Shown here: one piece after another, positions 54,857-64,000 of the stretch
Position numbering within the stretch: the first letter of the stretch is position 1
How the letters are laid out: the number at the start of each line of letters is the position of its first letter
Source: Streptomyces sp. NBC_00659
GTDB lineage: Bacteria > Actinomycetota > Actinomycetes > Streptomycetales > Streptomycetaceae
Reading direction: 5' to 3'
Length of the DNA: 64,000 nucleotides
Assembly (NCBI RefSeq): GCF_036226925.1
Contig: NZ_CP109031.1
Span: 5,766,001-5,830,000, forward strand
Made by a program: the position numbers and the translations under genes
Notes under the pieces: model-generated
Told to the model about the DNA's origin: nothing
The model's input: only the letters and a program-made list of their open reading frames with translations
Database searches by the model: none

Positions 54857-55273
<417 letters not shown>

Positions 55274-55758: not shown

Positions 55759-57372
55759 TCATGGCGCCGTGAGCTCGGCGGACATGGTCGCTCTCAGCCG
55801 CAGGGTCGTCACGAGCCGCTGGAAGGCCTCGGCCCAGTAGTCGCCGGACCCCGGTGCCGCGTGTTCCGACTCGTCGGGGACCGAGGTGAGCCCTTCGAGC
55901 CGTCCCGCCTCGGCCGGGTCGAGGCAGCGCTCGGCCAGCCCCATCACCCCGCTGAAGCTCCACGGAAAGCTCCCCGCGTCCCGCGCGATGTCGAGCGCGT
56001 CGACCACTGCCCGCCCCAGGCCCCCCGCCCAGGGCACCGCGCAGACCCCGAGCAGCTGGAACGCCTCGGACAGTCCGTGCGTACCGATGAACCCGGCCAC
56101 CCACTCGGCCCGCTCCCCGGCGCCCAGCGTGGCCAGCAGCTTGGCCCGCTCGGCCAGTGACACCGCCCCGGGCCCCCCGGCCTCCGGAGCGGAGGGCGGC
56201 CCGAGGAGTGCCCTCGACCACGCGGGATCGCGCTGCCGCACCGCCGCCCGGCACCACGCCGCATGCAGTTCCCCCTGCCAGCCGTCCGTCACGGGCAGGG
56301 CCACCATCTCCTCCGGCGAACGGCCGCCGAGCCGCTCCCGCCAGGTCGCGAGCGGCGCCGCCTCGACCAGCTGGCCCAGCCACCACGACCGTTCACCTCG
56401 GCCGCCCGGGGGTTTCGGCACCACCCCGTCCCGTTCCATCGCCGCGTCGCACTCGTGCGGCGCCTCGACCGTGATCACCGGTGTCCCCTGTGTACGGTCG
56501 ACGGCCACGCACGAGGCGGCCCTGTCCGCCATCCTCGCGGCGAGCGCGGACCCCGGCAGGGCGGACAGCAGCTCGGCCGCCGTCGCCCGGACGTTGCGGC
56601 TGCGGTCGGCCAGCGCCCGCTCCAGGAACGCCTCGTCCTCGGCGCACAGTCCGGACCGCAGCGAGTCGAGGAACATCAGCCGGTCCTCGGCCCGCTCCGT
56701 CGCCCAGGTCGCCACCAGCAAGGCGCGTCCGGCGGCGGGATCCTTGGCCCGTACCGCCGCCAGAAGGGCGACCCGCTCCGCGAACAGGCCCTCCTGCCAC
56801 AGCCGGTGTATGTCGTCGGCCTCCTCCGGCAGCGCGGCGGCGCCCGACGAGGAGCGCAGCGCGAACCGCCACTCGGGGTTCAGCCGGGCCAGCCACAGCG
56901 CCCGCGGCCCGGCGAAGTCGAGTACGGCGGGCCGCAGGTCCGTGCGCCCCCGGGCCGCGTCGAGGAGTGCCGGAAGGGTCCCCGGGGGCGCGGCGAATCC
57001 GCGCGTGTTCGCCAGGGCCAGCCACTGGGGCAGCAGCTCCATGAGGTCGGGTGCCGTGCCTCTGCGGCCGCCGCCGCCCGCGCCGGGGCGGTCCGCCAGC
57101 AGGGTCGTCAGCCTTCGGGCCGCGGCGGGCGGCAGCGCGGCCCGCGGGTCCGGTGCCGCGGGCTCCGGCCGGGCCGCCGCGCGCGCCGGCCGGATTCCGG
57201 CCCGCCGCCGCACGGTCTCCACGGCCGCCGCGTCCAGCAGCGCGACAGGAGCCTGCTGCCCGGGCCGTTGTCCCGGAAGCGTGCGCCGCTCGGTGCCGAG
57301 CAGCGCCACGGTGACGAGCTCCTCCCAGGAACCGCCGGCGGGCGCGCCCGCCGAAGCCGGTGTTGTGGTCAT
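55759..57372 (-). CDS. DUF5691 protein of a MoxR-VWA system
   Basis: A 537-residue helical protein, Ala/Arg/Leu-rich, with HEAT-like helical pairs (LFLDSLRSGLCAEDEAFLER, ALADRSRNVRATAAELLSAL). It starts WEELVTVALLGTERR, the signature of the DUF5691 family. Members occur next to SWIM proteins and MoxR/VWA genes, as here. Start at MTTTPAS. It lies 150 bases downstream of the SWIM gene on the same strand, so both are probably one transcript. Role probably scaffold or substrate adaptor; this is inference. Confidence 0.85.
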   Translation of the reverse strand: MTTTPASAGAPAGGSWEELVTVALLGTERRTLPGQRPGQQAPVALLDAAAVETVRRRAGIRPARAAARPEPAAPDPRAALPPAAARRLTTLLADRPGAGGGGRRGTAPDLMELLPQWLALANTRGFAAPPGTLPALLDAARGRTDLRPAVLDFAGPRALWLARLNPEWRFALRSSSGAAALPEEADDIHRLWQEGLFAERVALLAAVRAKDPAAGRALLVATWATERAEDRLMFLDSLRSGLCAEDEAFLERALADRSRNVRATAAELLSALPGSALAARMADRAASCVAVDRTQGTPVITVEAPHECDAAMERDGVVPKPPGGRGERSWWLGQLVEAAPLATWRERLGGRSPEEMVALPVTDGWQGELHAAWCRAAVRQRDPAWSRALLGPPSAPEAGGPGAVSLAERAKLLATLGAGERAEWVAGFIGTHGLSEAFQLLGVCAVPWAGGLGRAVVDALDIARDAGSFPWSFSGVMGLAERCLDPAEAGRLEGLTSVPDESEHAAPGSGDYWAEAFQRLVTTLRLRATMSAELTAP

Positions 57373-57525: not shown

Positions 57526-58881
57526 TCAGCACAGCGGCACCGCCTCGCCCTCGCCCTGCGGCCACGCCGTGAGCGGAGTGAAGCCGCGGTGGCCGCACTC
57601 GCCGAAGACCGTGACCGGTGCGCCGCCGGACAGGGCGACCAGGCGCCACAGTTCGGGTCGCGACCGCGAGGAAGGGCTGAGGGGGAGAGCCGACTCCCCG
57701 TCGAAGTCGGCCAGTTGCCAGGAGTCGCCGTCCGGGGCCGGGACGACCCGCTCCAGGGTGACCGGGTACGAGTCCAGCCAGGGGTCGGCGCGCAGCGCTT
57801 CTCCGTAACGGGCGGCCGCCTGGGGCGTGGTCAGCCCCGTCGGCCGTATCGCCGCGGGTGCCGGAGCAGTGAACCGCTCGCCCAGCGCCGCCCGCAGCTG
57901 GCCGGCGCCCGGGTACGCGGACACCTCCGCCTCGAAGGCCAGCCCCACCGGAAGCGCCAGTTCGGGTGCCCGGCCCGCCGCGCCGTAGGAGAGGAGCAGG
58001 GCCGTACGGCCGGACTCGGCGCCGTACAGCCAGATCCTGCGGGTCGTGAGCCGGGCGTCCGCCGTGTCGTACTGCGCGAGGACCAGCCAGCGGTCACGCA
58101 CCGGCGGGCCGTCCGCGGAGCCGGACAGTCCGACGCGGGAACGGACCGTCATGGCCAGGCCGTCCGGCAGCCGCTCGCGCCGCAGCCAGCCCTGGTCGAG
58201 AAGGTGCAGCAACGCGCACTCCTCCAGCAGCCGTACGGGCCAGCCCGGCCCCGACGACGGGATCGCCCCCAACTCCCTTACGCGCGCGGCCAGACCGGGT
58301 GCCTGCGCGTCGACCATCCGGGCCGCCGTCTCCTCCCACATCCCGTACCCCGCCCGCTCGGCGGAGGCGAGGCCGCCGCGCAGCAGGTCCGCCAGCCGCT
58401 GCTCCAGCTCGGCCGCCCCCGCGGTGATCCGCTCGGCCCGCCGCTCGGCCCTGCGCCGCGCCGCCTCGGGATCACCCGGCGAGGCGGCTCCAGATCCCCC
58501 GCCCGCCAGGCTCTTGCCCTCCGCGCGCCTGCGTCTTCCCTCCAGCCACTGGGCGGCCCAGTCCGGTGCCTGCGCGGACGGCACCGCTCCGTCCGCGCCC
58601 GCCCAGAGAAGCAGCAGTCCCAGCGCGTGCTTGCACGGGAACTTCCGGCTCGGACAACTGCACTTGTAAGCGGGACCCGCCGAGTCCGCGATGTCGACGA
58701 CCGTCTGATACGGCTTGCTGCCGCTTCCCCTGCACAGTCCCCATACCGTCCCCTCCTCCGTACTGCCCGCCTCGGACCACGGACCGGCCGCGCCGAGCTT
58801 GCTCCCCGCCTTGCGTGACGCGGCGTCAGGCGCCAGTGCCAGCACCTGATCCGCCGTCCAGCGCACCGCCTGCTGTGTCAT
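57526..58881 (-). CDS. SWIM zinc-finger protein of a MoxR-VWA system
   Basis: A 451-residue protein. The SWIM finger YKCSCPSRKFPCKHALGLLL (about residues 70-90) carries the CxCx(n)CxH zinc ligands, a nucleic-acid or protein binding module. The remainder is helical with WAAQWLEGRRRR and Ala/Arg/Glu segments, then beta-rich C-terminal parts. Its start (MTQQAVRWTADQ) lies exactly seven bases past the TACCTT -10 of a damage-type promoter, so the mRNA is leaderless. It is transcribed with the DUF5691 gene, divergent from the MoxR operon. Confidence 0.9.
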   Translation of the reverse strand: MTQQAVRWTADQVLALAPDAASRKAGSKLGAAGPWSEAGSTEEGTVWGLCRGSGSKPYQTVVDIADSAGPAYKCSCPSRKFPCKHALGLLLLWAGADGAVPSAQAPDWAAQWLEGRRRRAEGKSLAGGGSGAASPGDPEAARRRAERRAERITAGAAELEQRLADLLRGGLASAERAGYGMWEETAARMVDAQAPGLAARVRELGAIPSSGPGWPVRLLEECALLHLLDQGWLRRERLPDGLAMTVRSRVGLSGSADGPPVRDRWLVLAQYDTADARLTTRRIWLYGAESGRTALLLSYGAAGRAPELALPVGLAFEAEVSAYPGAGQLRAALGERFTAPAPAAIRPTGLTTPQAAARYGEALRADPWLDSYPVTLERVVPAPDGDSWQLADFDGESALPLSPSSRSRPELWRLVALSGGAPVTVFGECGHRGFTPLTAWPQGEGEAVPLC

Positions 58882-58888
58882 GCCATCG

Positions 58889-58911
58889 AAGGTAGGACCC
58901 ACCACTGACAA
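58889..58911 (-). promoter_or_regulatory. RecA-NDp (PafBC-type) promoter of the SWIM-DUF5691 operon
   Basis: Leftward TTGTCAGTG, exactly eight bases (gtgggtcc), then TACCTT: a perfect match to the RecA-independent damage promoter consensus TTGTCRGTG-N8-TAnnnT. Seven bases later is the A of the SWIM ATG. Confidence 0.85.
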
Positions 58912-58958
58912 TCGATCCCCGCGAGCGCATTTGTGCAGGTCAGAGCGATTGTCAGTGG
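58902..58958. promoter_or_regulatory. 13-bp inverted repeat joining the two divergent damage promoters
   Basis: Arms ccactgacaatcg (58902-58914) and its exact complement (58946-58958), 31 bases apart. The repeat is the two oppositely oriented TTGTCAGTG boxes plus flanking bases. Confidence 0.9.
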
Positions 58959-58971
58959 CGTGGTGCACGGT
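58949..58971 (+). promoter_or_regulatory. RecA-NDp-like promoter of the MoxR operon
   Basis: Rightward TTGTCAGTG (58949-58957), eight bases, then CACGGT (58966-58971), which keeps the A and final T of TAnnnT. The MoxR ATG is 42 bases past the -10, with GGAGGGGG before it. Confidence 0.65.
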
Positions 58972-59013
58972 GGAACCAGATCCGAACCGGCCGAGCTGGA
59001 GGGGGACCGAGGC

Positions 59014-60159
59014 ATGTCCGTGTCCGTAGAACCGACGTCAGTTGACGCACCCACGGGAGAGAAGGGGCCGAGCCGGCCGAGCGAGGCGCTGCGACCGCAC
59101 GCCGAGCACGCCTTCGCGGCCGAACTCGCCGCGCTCGCCGCGCAGGACGACCGGCCCCGCCCGGAGCGCTGGCTGCTGTCGCCCTGGGCCGTGGCCACCT
59201 ATCTGCTGGGCGGCACACTGCCCGACGGCACCGTGATCACCCCCAAATACGTGGGGCCGCGGCGCATCGTCGAGGTCGCCGTCACCACCCTCGCCACCGA
59301 CCGGGCCCTGCTCCTGCTCGGGGTGCCCGGCACCGCGAAGACCTGGGTGTCCGAGCACCTGGCGGCCGCGGTCAGCGGCGACTCGACCCTGCTCGTGCAG
59401 GGCACGGCCGGCACACCGGAGGAGGCCATCCGGTACGGCTGGAACTACGCGCGGCTGCTAGCGCACGGGCCCAGCCGGGACGCGCTCGTGCCGAGCCCCG
59501 TCATGCGGGCCATGGCCGAGGGCATGACGGCCCGCGTCGAGGAACTCACGCGCGTACCCGCGGACGTGCAGGACAGCCTGATCACGATTCTCTCCGAAAA
59601 GACCTTGCCGATACCGGAGTTGGGCCAGGAGGTGCAGGCCGTCCGCGGGTTCAACCTGATCGCCACGGCCAACGACCGTGACCGCGGGGTCAACGAACTC
59701 TCCAGCGCCCTGCGCCGCCGTTTCAACACGGTGGTGCTGCCGTTGCCGGAGAGCGCCGAGGCCGAGGTCGACATCGTCTCGCGCCGGGTCGACCAGATCG
59801 GCCGGTCCCTCGATCTGCCCGCCGTGCCGGACGGCGTCGACGAGATCCGCCGTGTCGTCACCGTCTTCCGGGAGCTGCGTGACGGGATCACGGCCGACGG
59901 TCGGACGAAGCTGAAGTCGCCGAGCGGCACGCTGTCCACGGCCGAGGCGATCTCCGTCGTCACCAGCGGCCTCGCGCTGGCCGCCCACTTCGGCGACGGC
60001 GTCCTGCGGGCGAGCGACGTCGCGGCCGGCATCCTCGGCGCCGTGGTGCGCGACCCGGCCGCCGACCGCGTCATCTGGCAGGAGTACCTGGAAGCGGTCG
60101 TCCGCGAGCGGGACGGCTGGAAGGACTTCTACCGCGCCTGCCGCGAGGTGAGCGTATGA
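59014..60159 (+). CDS. MoxR-family AAA+ ATPase
   Basis: A 381-residue AAA+ protein of the MoxR type. Walker A is GVPGTAKTW. The usual Walker B LLLDEINR is replaced by ARVEELTR, with Glu-Glu where Asp-Glu is expected. A sensor 1-like VRGFNLIATANDRDRGVNEL and arginine-finger region ALRRRFNTVVLPLP follow. MoxR ATPases act as chaperones that mature or recruit VWA-domain partners. It begins the rightward operon: its stop overlaps the DUF5682 start (ATGA). The upstream start at 58933 is rejected, because it lies inside the promoter. Confidence 0.93.
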   Translation: MSVSVEPTSVDAPTGEKGPSRPSEALRPHAEHAFAAELAALAAQDDRPRPERWLLSPWAVATYLLGGTLPDGTVITPKYVGPRRIVEVAVTTLATDRALLLLGVPGTAKTWVSEHLAAAVSGDSTLLVQGTAGTPEEAIRYGWNYARLLAHGPSRDALVPSPVMRAMAEGMTARVEELTRVPADVQDSLITILSEKTLPIPELGQEVQAVRGFNLIATANDRDRGVNELSSALRRRFNTVVLPLPESAEAEVDIVSRRVDQIGRSLDLPAVPDGVDEIRRVVTVFRELRDGITADGRTKLKSPSGTLSTAEAISVVTSGLALAAHFGDGVLRASDVAAGILGAVVRDPAADRVIWQEYLEAVVRERDGWKDFYRACREVSV

Positions 60160-62921
60160 GCGCCGGGCGGGACGCCGGGCCACCCGGGCAGGGGGGCGGG
60201 GCGATCGTCCGGGATCCGGGGCCGCTGCTGCTCGGTGTGCGGCACCACGGGCCCGGGTCCGCGCGGGCCGTACGGGCGGCGCTGGAGGCGGCGGCACCCC
60301 GGGTCGTGCTCATCGAGGGACCGCCCGAGGCGGACGCCCTCGTCCCGCTGGCCGCCGACAAGGACATGCGGCCGCCCGTGGCGCTCCTCGCCCACGTGGT
60401 GGACGAGCCCGGCCACTCGGCCTTCTGGCCGCTGGCCGAGTTCTCACCGGAGTGGGTGGCGATCCGGTGGGCCCTGGAGCACGGGGTACCGGCCCGCTTC
60501 ATCGACCTTCCGGCCGCCCACACCCTGGCCGGGCGGAGAGAAGGGACGGACCCCGACCGGGACGGGCCGGTGAGCGCCCCCTCCGACACCCCGCCCCCGG
60601 CCGGAGAGCCCGGCGCCCGCGGCCCCGGAGGCGAGCCTGCGCCGGAAGCCGATCGCGGTCTCTCGGACGAGTCCGGCCCTGCGGGAGCTCCCAGCCTCTC
60701 GGATGATCCCGGACCTGCGGGTGATTCTGGACCTGCGGATGGTCCCGGCCCTGCGGGTGATCCCGGACAGCCGGAAGCCGCCGGTGGTTCCGGCTGTTCC
60801 GCCGACGGGACCGCCCTACGGATCGACCCCCTCGCGGTGCTCGCCGAGACGGCCGGTTACGACGATCCGGAGCGCTGGTGGGAGGACGTGGTCGAGCACA
60901 GGGCGGGTGCGGCGGACGACCCGTTCGCTCCGTTCGCCGTGCTGGAGGAGGCCATGGGATCGCTGCGCGAGGCGTACGGGGTCGGCGGACACGACCGGGA
61001 CCTGGTGCGCGAGGCGTACATGCGGCTCCAGATCCGGGCTGCGCAGCGGGAGTTCGGGGACGGCGTGGCCGTGGTGTGCGGGGCCTGGCACGTTCCCGCG
61101 CTGCGGCGGAAGGCCACGGTCGGCGCCGACCGGGCACTCCTCAAGGGGCTGCCCAAGGCCAAGGTCCAGCTGACGTGGGTTCCCTGGACGCACCGCCGGC
61201 TGTCCCGGGCCAGCGGTTACGGAGCGGGCATCGACTCGCCGGGCTGGTACGGGCATCTGTTCAGCGCCCCCGACCGCCCGGTCGAGCGGTGGATGACGAA
61301 GGTGGCCAGGCTGCTGCGCGACGAGGACATGGGCGTGTCGTCGGCCCACGTCATCGAGGCCGTGCGACTGGCCGGGACACTCGCCGCGATGCGCGGTCGC
61401 CCGCTGCCGGGACTGACCGAGACCACCGACGCCGTCCGGGCCGTGATGTGCGAGGGCTCGGACGTCCCCCTGGAACTGGTGCGCGACCGGCTCGTGGTCG
61501 GCGAGGTGCTCGGCGAGGTGCCGGAATCCGCTCCGGCGGTGCCGTTGCAGCGGGACCTCACGCAGGCGCAGCGGCGGCTGCGGCTCAAGCCCGAGGCGCT
61601 GGAACGGGAGATGGAACTCGACCTGCGCAAGGAGACCGACGCGGGGCGCAGCACGCTGTTGCACCGGTTGCGGCTCCTGGGCATCGCGTGGGGCGAGCCC
61701 GCGGTGTCCCGCGGCAGCACGGGAACCTTCCGCGAGACCTGGCGGCTGCGCTGGGAGCCGGAGCTGTCGGTGCGGGTCGCCGAGGCCGGTGTGTGGGGCA
61801 CGACCGTGCTGTCCGCCGCGACGGCCAAGGCCGAGGCGGACGCCGTCGGCGCGCCGTCCCTCGCGGATGTCACGGCCCTCGCCGAGCGCTGCCTGCTCGC
61901 CGAGCTCCCGGAAGCGCTGCCCGTGGTGATGCGGGTGCTCGCCGACCGCGCCGCCCTCGACACGGACGTGGGCCATCTCGCGCAGGCCCTGCCCGCGCTC
62001 GTCCGCTCCCTGCGCTACGGCGACGTACGCGGCACGGACACCCACGCCCTCGCCGATGTCGCGGCAGGCCTCGCCGAACGCGTCTTCGTCGGTCTTCCCC
62101 CGGCCTGCGCCGCCCTCGACAGCGACGCCGCCGAGGAGATGCGCCGCCACCTCGACGCCGTGCACGGGGCCGTGGGGCTGCTGGAGGAGACGACCCAGGG
62201 GGCCGCCGAGTCCGGGGGGATCCGCGGGCGCTGGTACGCGGTGCTGCGGGTGCTCGCGGCTCGGGACACGGTGCCGGGTGTGGTCAGAGGCCGGTCCGTC
62301 CGCCTGCTCCTGGACGAGGGGGAACTGGCGCAGGAGGAGGCCGCCCGGCTCATGGGTCTCGTGCTGTCGCCGGGCACGGAACCCGCGGACGGAGCCGCTT
62401 GGATCGAGGGATTCGTCGGGGGCGGCTCCGGCGGCATGCTGCTCGTGCACGACGAGCGGCTGCTCGCGCTGGTGGACTCGTGGCTGACCGGGGTTCCGGC
62501 GGACGCGTTCACCGATGTGCTGCCGCTGCTGCGCCGGACGTTCTCGGCGTACGAGACGGGGGTGCGCAGGACTCTGGGCGAACTCGTCCGGCGCGGCCCG
62601 GCGCCGCGGGCGAACACCGAGGCAGCCGGCTCGGGCTCCGGCTCCGGCTCCGGCATACCCGGGTTCGCCCCCGACCTCGACACCGGGCGCGCCGACGCCG
62701 TCCTGCCGCTGCTGAGCCTGCTGCTGGGGCTGGCCGATCCCGACGCGGACACCGGCACCGACACCGACGCGGACACCGGCACCGGCGCTTACACCGGCAC
62801 CGGAACCGGCGCGGAGATCGACACCGGCACCGGAACAGGCACCGGCTCCGGCAACGGAACAGGCACCGGAATCAGCACCGGCACCGACATCGACAACGAT
62901 CTTGTGAGGGTGGCTCCATGA
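60156..62921 (+). CDS. DUF5682 protein of a MoxR-VWA system
   Basis: A 921-residue protein with a conserved N-terminus (LLLGVRHHGPGSARAVRAAL and LIEGPPEADALVPLAADKDM), the signature of DUF5682, plus AVVCGAWHVPALRRK further on, reminiscent of the TraB/ChaN-like fold of haem- or metal-binding enzymes. Helical middle (LTQAQRRLRLKPEALEREME). Two low-complexity segments interrupt it: a Pro/Gly/Asp stretch at about 135-210, and a Thr/Gly/Asp tail at about 865-915. It is coupled by ATGA overlaps to both the MoxR gene before it and the VWA gene after it, so the three proteins are made together. Biochemical role unknown. Confidence 0.9.
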   Translation: MSAGRDAGPPGQGGGAIVRDPGPLLLGVRHHGPGSARAVRAALEAAAPRVVLIEGPPEADALVPLAADKDMRPPVALLAHVVDEPGHSAFWPLAEFSPEWVAIRWALEHGVPARFIDLPAAHTLAGRREGTDPDRDGPVSAPSDTPPPAGEPGARGPGGEPAPEADRGLSDESGPAGAPSLSDDPGPAGDSGPADGPGPAGDPGQPEAAGGSGCSADGTALRIDPLAVLAETAGYDDPERWWEDVVEHRAGAADDPFAPFAVLEEAMGSLREAYGVGGHDRDLVREAYMRLQIRAAQREFGDGVAVVCGAWHVPALRRKATVGADRALLKGLPKAKVQLTWVPWTHRRLSRASGYGAGIDSPGWYGHLFSAPDRPVERWMTKVARLLRDEDMGVSSAHVIEAVRLAGTLAAMRGRPLPGLTETTDAVRAVMCEGSDVPLELVRDRLVVGEVLGEVPESAPAVPLQRDLTQAQRRLRLKPEALEREMELDLRKETDAGRSTLLHRLRLLGIAWGEPAVSRGSTGTFRETWRLRWEPELSVRVAEAGVWGTTVLSAATAKAEADAVGAPSLADVTALAERCLLAELPEALPVVMRVLADRAALDTDVGHLAQALPALVRSLRYGDVRGTDTHALADVAAGLAERVFVGLPPACAALDSDAAEEMRRHLDAVHGAVGLLEETTQGAAESGGIRGRWYAVLRVLAARDTVPGVVRGRSVRLLLDEGELAQEEAARLMGLVLSPGTEPADGAAWIEGFVGGGSGGMLLVHDERLLALVDSWLTGVPADAFTDVLPLLRRTFSAYETGVRRTLGELVRRGPAPRANTEAAGSGSGSGSGIPGFAPDLDTGRADAVLPLLSLLLGLADPDADTGTDTDADTGTGAYTGTGTGAEIDTGTGTGTGSGNGTGTGISTGTDIDNDLVRVAP

Positions 62922-64000
62922 CCGAGGTGGCGGCGGGTGCCGGAGACGAGCGGCTGCGGCGATGGCGGCTGGTGCTCGGCGGCGACGAGGCGGACGGCAC
63001 CGGACGCGTGCTCTCAGGCCGGGACGCCGCCATGGACGGGGCGCTGAGCGCGCTCTACGGGAAGGGGAGCGGGGGACGGCCGGGGCGGGACCGCTCGGCG
63101 GGGCTCGGGGCGTCGGCGCCGTCAGTCGCGCGCTGGCTCGGTGACATCCGGACCTACTTCCCCTCCTCCGTCGTCCAGGTGATGCAACGGGACGCCATCG
63201 ACCGGCTCGGGCTCTCCGCCCTGCTCCTGGAGCCCGAGATGCTGGAGGCGGTGGAGGCCGACGTGCATCTGGTGGGCACCCTTCTCTCTCTCAACAAGGC
63301 CATGCCGGAGACGACGAAGGAGACCGCGCGGGCCGTGGTGCGCAAGGTCGTGGAGGACCTGGAGAGGCGGCTCGCCACCCGCACCCGGGCCACGCTCACC
63401 GGCGCCCTCGACCGCAGCGCCCGGATCAGCAGACCCCGCCACCACGACATCGACTGGAACCGCACGATCGCGGCCAACCTCAAGCACTACCTGCCCGAGT
63501 ACCGCACGGTCGTGCCCGAGCGGCTGATCGGCTACGGGCGTGCCTCGCAGTCCGTGAAGAAGGAGGTCATCCTCTGCATCGACCAGTCGGGGTCGATGGC
63601 GGCGTCGGTCGTCTACGCCTCCGTGTTCGGTGCCGTGCTGGCGTCGATGCGGTCCATCGCCACCCGGCTCGTCGTCTTCGACACGGCCGTCGTCGACCTC
63701 ACCGACCAGCTCGACGACCCGGTCGACGTCCTCTTCGGCACCCAGCTCGGCGGCGGCACGGACATCAACCGGGCACTCGCCTACTGCCAGTCGCAGATCA
63801 CCAGACCGGCCGACACGGTCGTCGTCCTCATCAGTGACCTCTACGAGGGCGGGATCCGCAACGAGATGCTGAAGCGGGTCGCGGCGATGAAGTCGTCGGG
63901 GGTCCAGTTCGTGACGCTGCTCGCGCTGTCCGACGAGGGGGCGCCCGCGTACGACCGTGAGCACGCGGCGGCGCTCGCGGCGCTCGACGCTCCGGCATTC
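62918..64000 (+). CDS. VWA-domain protein of a MoxR-VWA system (cut by window end)
   Basis: 361 codons of a protein that continues past the window. The start overlaps the DUF5682 stop (ATGA). A helical N-terminal half (VARWLGDIRTYFPSSVVQVM, ATLTGALDRSARISRPRHHD) is followed by a von Willebrand A domain with the metal-ion adhesion site DQSGSMAAS, Thr in GGGTDINRAL and Asp in VLISDLYEG. These VWA proteins (YehP/CoxE-like) work with MoxR ATPases, which place the VWA partner on a target or metal centre. All three MIDAS elements are intact. Confidence 0.93.
   Translation, partial: MTEVAAGAGDERLRRWRLVLGGDEADGTGRVLSGRDAAMDGALSALYGKGSGGRPGRDRSAGLGASAPSVARWLGDIRTYFPSSVVQVMQRDAIDRLGLSALLLEPEMLEAVEADVHLVGTLLSLNKAMPETTKETARAVVRKVVEDLERRLATRTRATLTGALDRSARISRPRHHDIDWNRTIAANLKHYLPEYRTVVPERLIGYGRASQSVKKEVILCIDQSGSMAASVVYASVFGAVLASMRSIATRLVVFDTAVVDLTDQLDDPVDVLFGTQLGGGTDINRALAYCQSQITRPADTVVVLISDLYEGGIRNEMLKRVAAMKSSGVQFVTLLALSDEGAPAYDREHAAALAALDAPAF

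Follow-up and report, generated by a model that had tools for sequence, protein, structure and literature searches.

Damage promoters of the RecA-NDp (RecA-independent) class are known from mycobacteria, where their published motif is that of PafBC (PMC8223512). Papers are cited here by PubMed Central (PMC) identifier. In Streptomyces, RecA-NDp promoters were earlier reported for recA and for SCO6735, which is induced 5-fold by ultraviolet light (PMC5087735). Here we describe two sites with this motif in a stretch of 64,000 nucleotides from Streptomyces sp. NBC_00659 (contig NZ_CP109031.1, positions 5,766,001 to 5,830,000; hereafter the window, numbered from its first letter). They lie in the gap between a SWIM zinc-finger gene and a gene for a MoxR-type AAA+ ATPase. 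They resemble the mycobacterial, recA and SCO6735 cases in box, N8 spacer, -10 element, predicted leaderless start, the company of repair genes and the presence of PafBC genes. By contrast, they form a divergent pair in one gap and have a conserved CAnnnT -10 on the MoxR side. We conclude that the gap most probably contains a pair of divergent RecA-NDp-class damage promoters, with PafBC as their expected regulator, that drive a YehL-type MoxR/VWA module.

The products of the module also have described counterparts. Like the NorQ/NorD, CoxD/CoxE and RavA/ViaA pairs, the module joins a MoxR protein to a CoxE-like VWA protein and is probably a remodelling chaperone. Unlike them, it has no metalloenzyme partner among its five genes and has a promoter type common to DNA repair genes. 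The E. coli K-12 cluster yehF, yehH (a pseudogene), yehI (DUF4132), yehK, yehL, yehM, yehP and yehQ is alike in its MoxR homologue, in DUF5682 (a family match in E. coli, yehM by position) and, by annotation, in its VWA and SWIM genes. The window system differs from it in having DUF5691 and a divergent layout and in lacking DUF4132. YehL and the window MoxR share 40% identity (226 bits), and the module proteins therefore have relatives, where a sequence-only reading of the window had called them otherwise uncharacterised.

Two putative damage promoters in the SWIM/MoxR gap

The intergenic gap measures 132 bp (58882-59013), rather than the 133 bp first given. The sequence-only reading had placed two inverted TTGTCAGTG boxes in it, and both are there, at 58903-58911 (-) and 58949-58957 (+). 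They are the only two in the 64 kb, where 0.11 would be expected, and none of 100 shuffles reached two; the observation is more than chance. As had also been claimed, the leftward box is followed after eight bases by TACCTT, then by CGATGGC (7 nt) and the SWIM ATG at 58881; the coordinates bear out a perfect consensus promoter, and the SWIM mRNA is predicted to be leaderless. The rightward box, likewise perfect, has CACGGT at the same N8 spacing, with one mismatch to TAnnnT in the -10. The MoxR ATG, preceded by a GGAGGGGG stretch, lies 42 nt past CACGGT, and because of this distance the MoxR-side transcript would not be leaderless. The two sites and the five genes, whose content as first proposed was upheld by Pfam, are as follows.

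58889..58911, minus strand: putative RecA-NDp/PafBC-type promoter of the SWIM operon, TTGTCAGTG-GTGGGTCC-TACCTT, a perfect match to TTGTCRGTG-N8-TAnnnT
58949..58971, plus strand: putative RecA-NDp/PafBC-type promoter of the MoxR operon, TTGTCAGTG-GCGTGGTG-CACGGT, with the -10 variant CAnnnT
57526..58881, minus strand: SWIM zinc-finger protein, 451 amino acids (aa) (Pfam SWIM, 4.6e-06)
55759..57372, minus strand: DUF5691 protein, 537 aa, start codon uncertain (Pfam DUF5691, 3.9e-174)
59014..60159, plus strand: MoxR-type AAA+ ATPase, 381 aa (Pfam AAA_5)
60156..62921, plus strand: DUF5682 protein, 921 aa, with an EreA/TIKI-like N-terminus and a C-terminal helical solenoid
62918..64000, and on to the equivalent of 64081 beyond the window, plus strand: VWA (CoxE-like) protein (Pfam VWA_CoxE, 1.1e-58)

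SWIM and DUF5691 are thus transcribed leftward and MoxR, DUF5682 and VWA rightward. By Pfam, the DUF5682, CoxE-like VWA and SWIM genes accompany MoxR in the window, and DUF4132 is absent from its five genes.

Both sites are conserved in Streptomyces

The sequence-only reading had made its case depend on conservation of the layout at orthologous loci. We compared a set of named loci, the best 80 of 562 confirmed relatives and all from Streptomyces; two without an alignable SWIM match were dropped, which left 78. All 78 carry the layout, and each side is within one mismatch if the MoxR side may have CAnnnT. On the SWIM side, 76 of them match perfectly and 2 have one mismatch, with the start codon 6-7 nt after the -10; the MoxR-side box plus CAnnnT is likewise perfect in 76 and has one mismatch in 2. 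Conservation by column on the SWIM side is 97-100% within the box, 80-96% over the four bases before it and 44-71% at bases 5-14 before it. The MoxR-side site goes beyond what the PafBC consensus demands: its spacer (GTGGTG) and the last two bases of its -10, GT, are 94-100% conserved (58960-58971).

Similar counts were obtained from an even sample of the class, with 27 genus members that have the core system (our genome included; overlap with the named strains is possible). Here the MoxR side was perfect in 24 of 27 loci and had one mismatch in 3. Of 23 loci extending to the SWIM side, 22 were perfect there and one had a single mismatch. Where both boxes are exact (74 loci), the start-to-start distance of the inverted boxes ranges from 36 to 617. 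These distances cluster at 45-47, 57-58 and 69-70, in steps of about 12 bp.

In other families the genes, where seen, are ordered SWIM-DUF5691-MoxR-DUF5682-VWA in one direction and as one operon. We searched 25 such loci for a site at the same spacing before SWIM, the first gene, with YAnnnT allowed. Three sites were perfect, 7 were within one mismatch and 19 within two, against shuffled expectations of 0.0, 0.005 and 0.115; in 18 of these 19 the start codon lies 6-8 nt after the -10. One family has CTGTCGGAG or GTGTCGGAG boxes with CAGACT-like -10s, and in genome G189 the single perfect motif is the SWIM promoter (L116).

The motif precedes repair genes and a second DUF5682 system

With at most one mismatch, the motif has 117 matches in the 9.66-Mb genome versus 9 for a reversed control, and 30 sites are perfect. 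Perfect sites lie upstream of recA, radA/sms and xseA (each product over its NCBIfam cut-off), and also upstream of genes for UvrB, uracil-DNA glycosylase, O6-methylguanine methyltransferase (ogt), a RecD2-type HHH protein, an AlkZ-like glycosylase and an extracytoplasmic-function sigma factor. Another precedes a YoaA/DinG-like helicase gene, whose family score (first 497 residues only) is below the cut-off. An in-frame start codon follows the -10 by 6-9 nt in 12 of the 30 chosen open reading frames, or 13 counting a small first gene at L021. Some of the 30 are doubtfully placed (downstream of L012, L026 and L027, for example, no gene is convincing), and some precede genes without an evident repair role (isochorismatase, trehalose-phosphatase, HPPK). 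Seven other Streptomyces genomes have 16 to 40 perfect sites each, with 0 or 1 for the reversed control, and 32 genomes outside the genus have 0 to 12. The site before a DUF6745 gene (L029; L227:5401-6954) has all 23 bases of the site before a SWIM gene 7 Mb away (L003; L225:4162), by chance or by duplication.

The genome has two DUF5682 genes. The second belongs to a system ordered DUF4132, a 1751-aa protein, MoxR, a DUF5682/VWA fusion and a 725-aa protein, and its DUF4132 gene has a perfect box upstream. This system, with DUF4132 first and a MoxR of 46% identity to YehL, is closer to the E. coli yeh locus. At 16 loci of this second type elsewhere, a site within one mismatch was found in 14, 10 of them perfect; all 14 genus-mate loci are positive, the presence of DUF4132 being assumed for each. 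A Streptomyces atratus plasmid shows this gene order too; its DUF4132 gene has a site with one mismatch about 85 nt upstream. In all, perfect boxes lie upstream of both DUF4132 genes, two of three SWIM-family genes and both DUF5682 systems of the genome. The other boxed SWIM gene (L225:4162-8413, in G000:C1:1832000-1846000) has its perfect box 6 nt before the start and is followed by an 883-aa DUF7824/DUF7825 gene; the two may form a further SWIM system of the damage regulon. The other DUF4132 gene (L226:6571-9455, in G000:C1:5888000-5902000) encodes an 821-aa DUF4132-DUF7737 protein and stands with a small gene behind a perfect box; no MoxR gene was seen beside it.

Related modules lie behind LexA-box-like and DdrO-type sites

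In E. coli, AACTGGATAAAATTACAGGG, a LexA-box-like sequence, lies just upstream of yehF, at the front of the cluster. We take the PF05406 match of yehF to be a WGR domain and yehF itself to be molR (b2115). Lists of LexA-regulated genes include molR (PMC4576408, PMC3978071, PMC11039860). A five-gene operon of Deinococcus taeanensis has, by eye, a -35 and a -10 with a site resembling the radiation/desiccation response motif (RDRM, DdrO-type) just downstream. This site scores 20.3 bits, the next separate site in 15 kb scores 8.2, and 26 of 36 training sites score lower than it does. In D. radiodurans, mitomycin C raises DRA0166 (DUF4132) and DR2173 (WGR), and the rise depends on IrrE (PMC8533742). 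A Hymenobacter radiodurans plasmid has an RDRM-like site (L229:3759-3775) about 190 bp upstream of the SWIM gene in a homologous operon; at 18.4 bits under a GC-rich background model it is the best of a 15-kb stretch. A MoxR-DUF5682-DUF4132-VWA operon also occurs on the Sinorhizobium sp. RAC02 plasmid pBSY16_2 (L258), which is typed conjugative.

Since yehF, the first gene of the E. coli cluster, is taken to be the LexA-regulated molR and one Deinococcus operon has a DdrO-type site, the damage regulators of related modules may be of three unrelated kinds, and damage-linked expression may be old or repeatedly gained. We propose, tentatively and at somewhat less than an even chance, that modules of the YehL type (MoxR/VWA/DUF5682) form a widespread branch of the bacterial DNA-damage response. 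Each group would have brought them under its own regulator independently (PafBC in Actinomycetes, LexA in enterobacteria, DdrO in Deinococcus), and they would clear or rebuild protein-DNA complexes as damage-induced AAA+ machines.

Weighing the evidence and the alternatives

The genome encodes PafB and PafC close to pafA as neighbouring WYL/WCX proteins, one of which has HTH_PafC. HTH_PafC was over its cut-off in all 48 genomes searched, of 75 with DUF5682. From motif and context, regulation of the module by DNA damage is strongly predicted, and we infer that PafBC binds the window sites and induces from them.

Several observations weigh against these readings. The 80 named loci are not independent, being the best of the confirmed relatives and all from one genus. 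Outside Streptomyces, 7 of the 32 genomes are without any perfect motif, and both second systems covered (L243, L245) are without a box. Among the 25 loci of other families, two (L124, L130) do no better than chance, L107 gives a weak result (p 0.06), and at L125 no start codon stands where it should. HTH_PafC also matches in 5 of 14 control genomes (3 over cut-off) and matches several times per genome, so that a match alone is no proof of PafC. According to PMC9380542, a first motif search in S. venezuelae pointed against conservation of the mycobacterial PafBC motif, and the question was left open there. In the 26-kb E. coli stretch, one-mismatch LexA patterns are only weakly enriched (13 against an expected 7; 4 of 100 shuffles also gave at least 13), and with 306 nt between yehK and yehL, LexA control need not extend to yehLMPQ. 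The Deinococcus evidence comes from a single plasmid, and neither a PafBC-like nor a LexA box was found before the Rhizobium operon.

The module might alternatively be a biological-conflict system, anti-phage or abortive, whose induction by damage would report phage attack. MoxR-vWA pairs form proposed conflict systems (PMC7159879), and like the described ternary ones (with VMAP, iSTAND, FtsH or a beta-propeller) the module joins a MoxR AAA+ protein and a vWA partner to extra components. Folds like the DUF5682 N-terminus are found in effectors, and a MoxR relative occurs in 40 plasmid records, 4 of them, including pBSY16_2, typed conjugative. However, PADLOC had no match among the five proteins (VWA cut at the window end), Pfam gave no sign in them of the four described third components (VMAP perhaps lying outside profile coverage), and the window MoxR scores 23.8 bits, below the bpMoxR cut-off of 27. 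DUF5682 is moreover present in 28 of the 28 genus members listed (27 in core form) behind a conserved promoter, genomes without a match being listed only in part. We regard a conflict role as unlikely.

Genuine boxes could also be read by a WYL-family regulator other than PafBC, as HTH_PafC matches several proteins per genome and the PafBC response of Streptomyces was left open in 2022 (PMC9380542). This is rather improbable: the motif agrees with the one published for RecA-NDp/PafBC promoters (PMC8223512), repair genes of the same class lie downstream here, and PafB-PafC are near pafA as expected. It is distinctly improbable that the SWIM-side site alone is functional, with CACGGT a decayed -10 and MoxR expressed from a housekeeping promoter. 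CAnnnT does depart from TAnnnT, and with the TTGTCGGTG box it is not commoner in the genome than GAnnnT (first base C 9, G 10, T 7). With the TTGTCAGTG box, however, CAnnnT ranks second in number (first base T 23, C 17, G 5, A 0; 100 of the 117 sites), and on the MoxR side it is conserved together with its spacer. Finally, the exactly inverted boxes with 13-bp arms and the clustered distances would suit a single palindromic operator for a local repressor or activator instead of two promoters, which is very improbable given that the distances nonetheless span so wide a range, that other families have a single site at a fixed distance from the start codon and that each box retains its own -10 in phase.

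Predicted function and meaning of the module

Under the divergent-promoter reading, PafBC would act when single-stranded DNA accumulates and let the housekeeping RNA polymerase start at the -26 box plus -10, so that both half-operons are switched on together. SWIM-DUF5691 would then be translated from an mRNA without a leader and MoxR-DUF5682-VWA from one with a short leader. Together they would make up a MoxR AAA+/VWA module of the YehL type, joined by a SWIM zinc-finger protein and two large accessory proteins. The module probably serves AAA+/VWA remodelling at damaged DNA: the MoxR ring and its VWA partner would remodel or release proteins there, SWIM and DUF5691 may be targeting parts, and DUF5682 may be an enzyme-like or scaffold subunit. 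The DUF5682 N-terminus gives moderate structural matches to EreA/TIKI-type folds (EreC, HopBA1 and similar) and has the invariant motifs GxRHHGPGS, EG and GAWH. It differs from these folds in being fused to a helical solenoid within an AAA+/VWA operon. A Pro/Gly-rich insert (residues 130-218) and a Thr/Gly/Asp-rich low-complexity repeat in the C-terminal tail (62740-62900) both have low model confidence. Elsewhere in the window, an open reading frame at 54857-55273 (+) resembles, by eye, a cobalamin-binding protein of the methylmalonyl-CoA mutase type.

In the open PMC literature we found no mention of DUF5682 or DUF5691 and no report of an AAA+/VWA module as a target of the RecA-NDp class; DUF4132 is named there in 3 papers, and 2 papers name at least two of yehL, yehM, yehP and yehQ. 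The class assignment of the module, its conservation, the boxed paralogous systems and the LexA/DdrO parallel appear to be new, since we did not find them there. The conserved promoters tie a large, little-studied AAA+/VWA module to DNA damage, and the perfect sites supply a concrete list of candidate PafBC targets in one Streptomyces genome, where PMC9380542 leaves such a response open. If related modules do sit under three unrelated damage regulators, evolution would argue strongly that they share a role in surviving damage. Such an arrangement suggests that bacteria deal with broken DNA partly through this machine, whose contribution has been overlooked.

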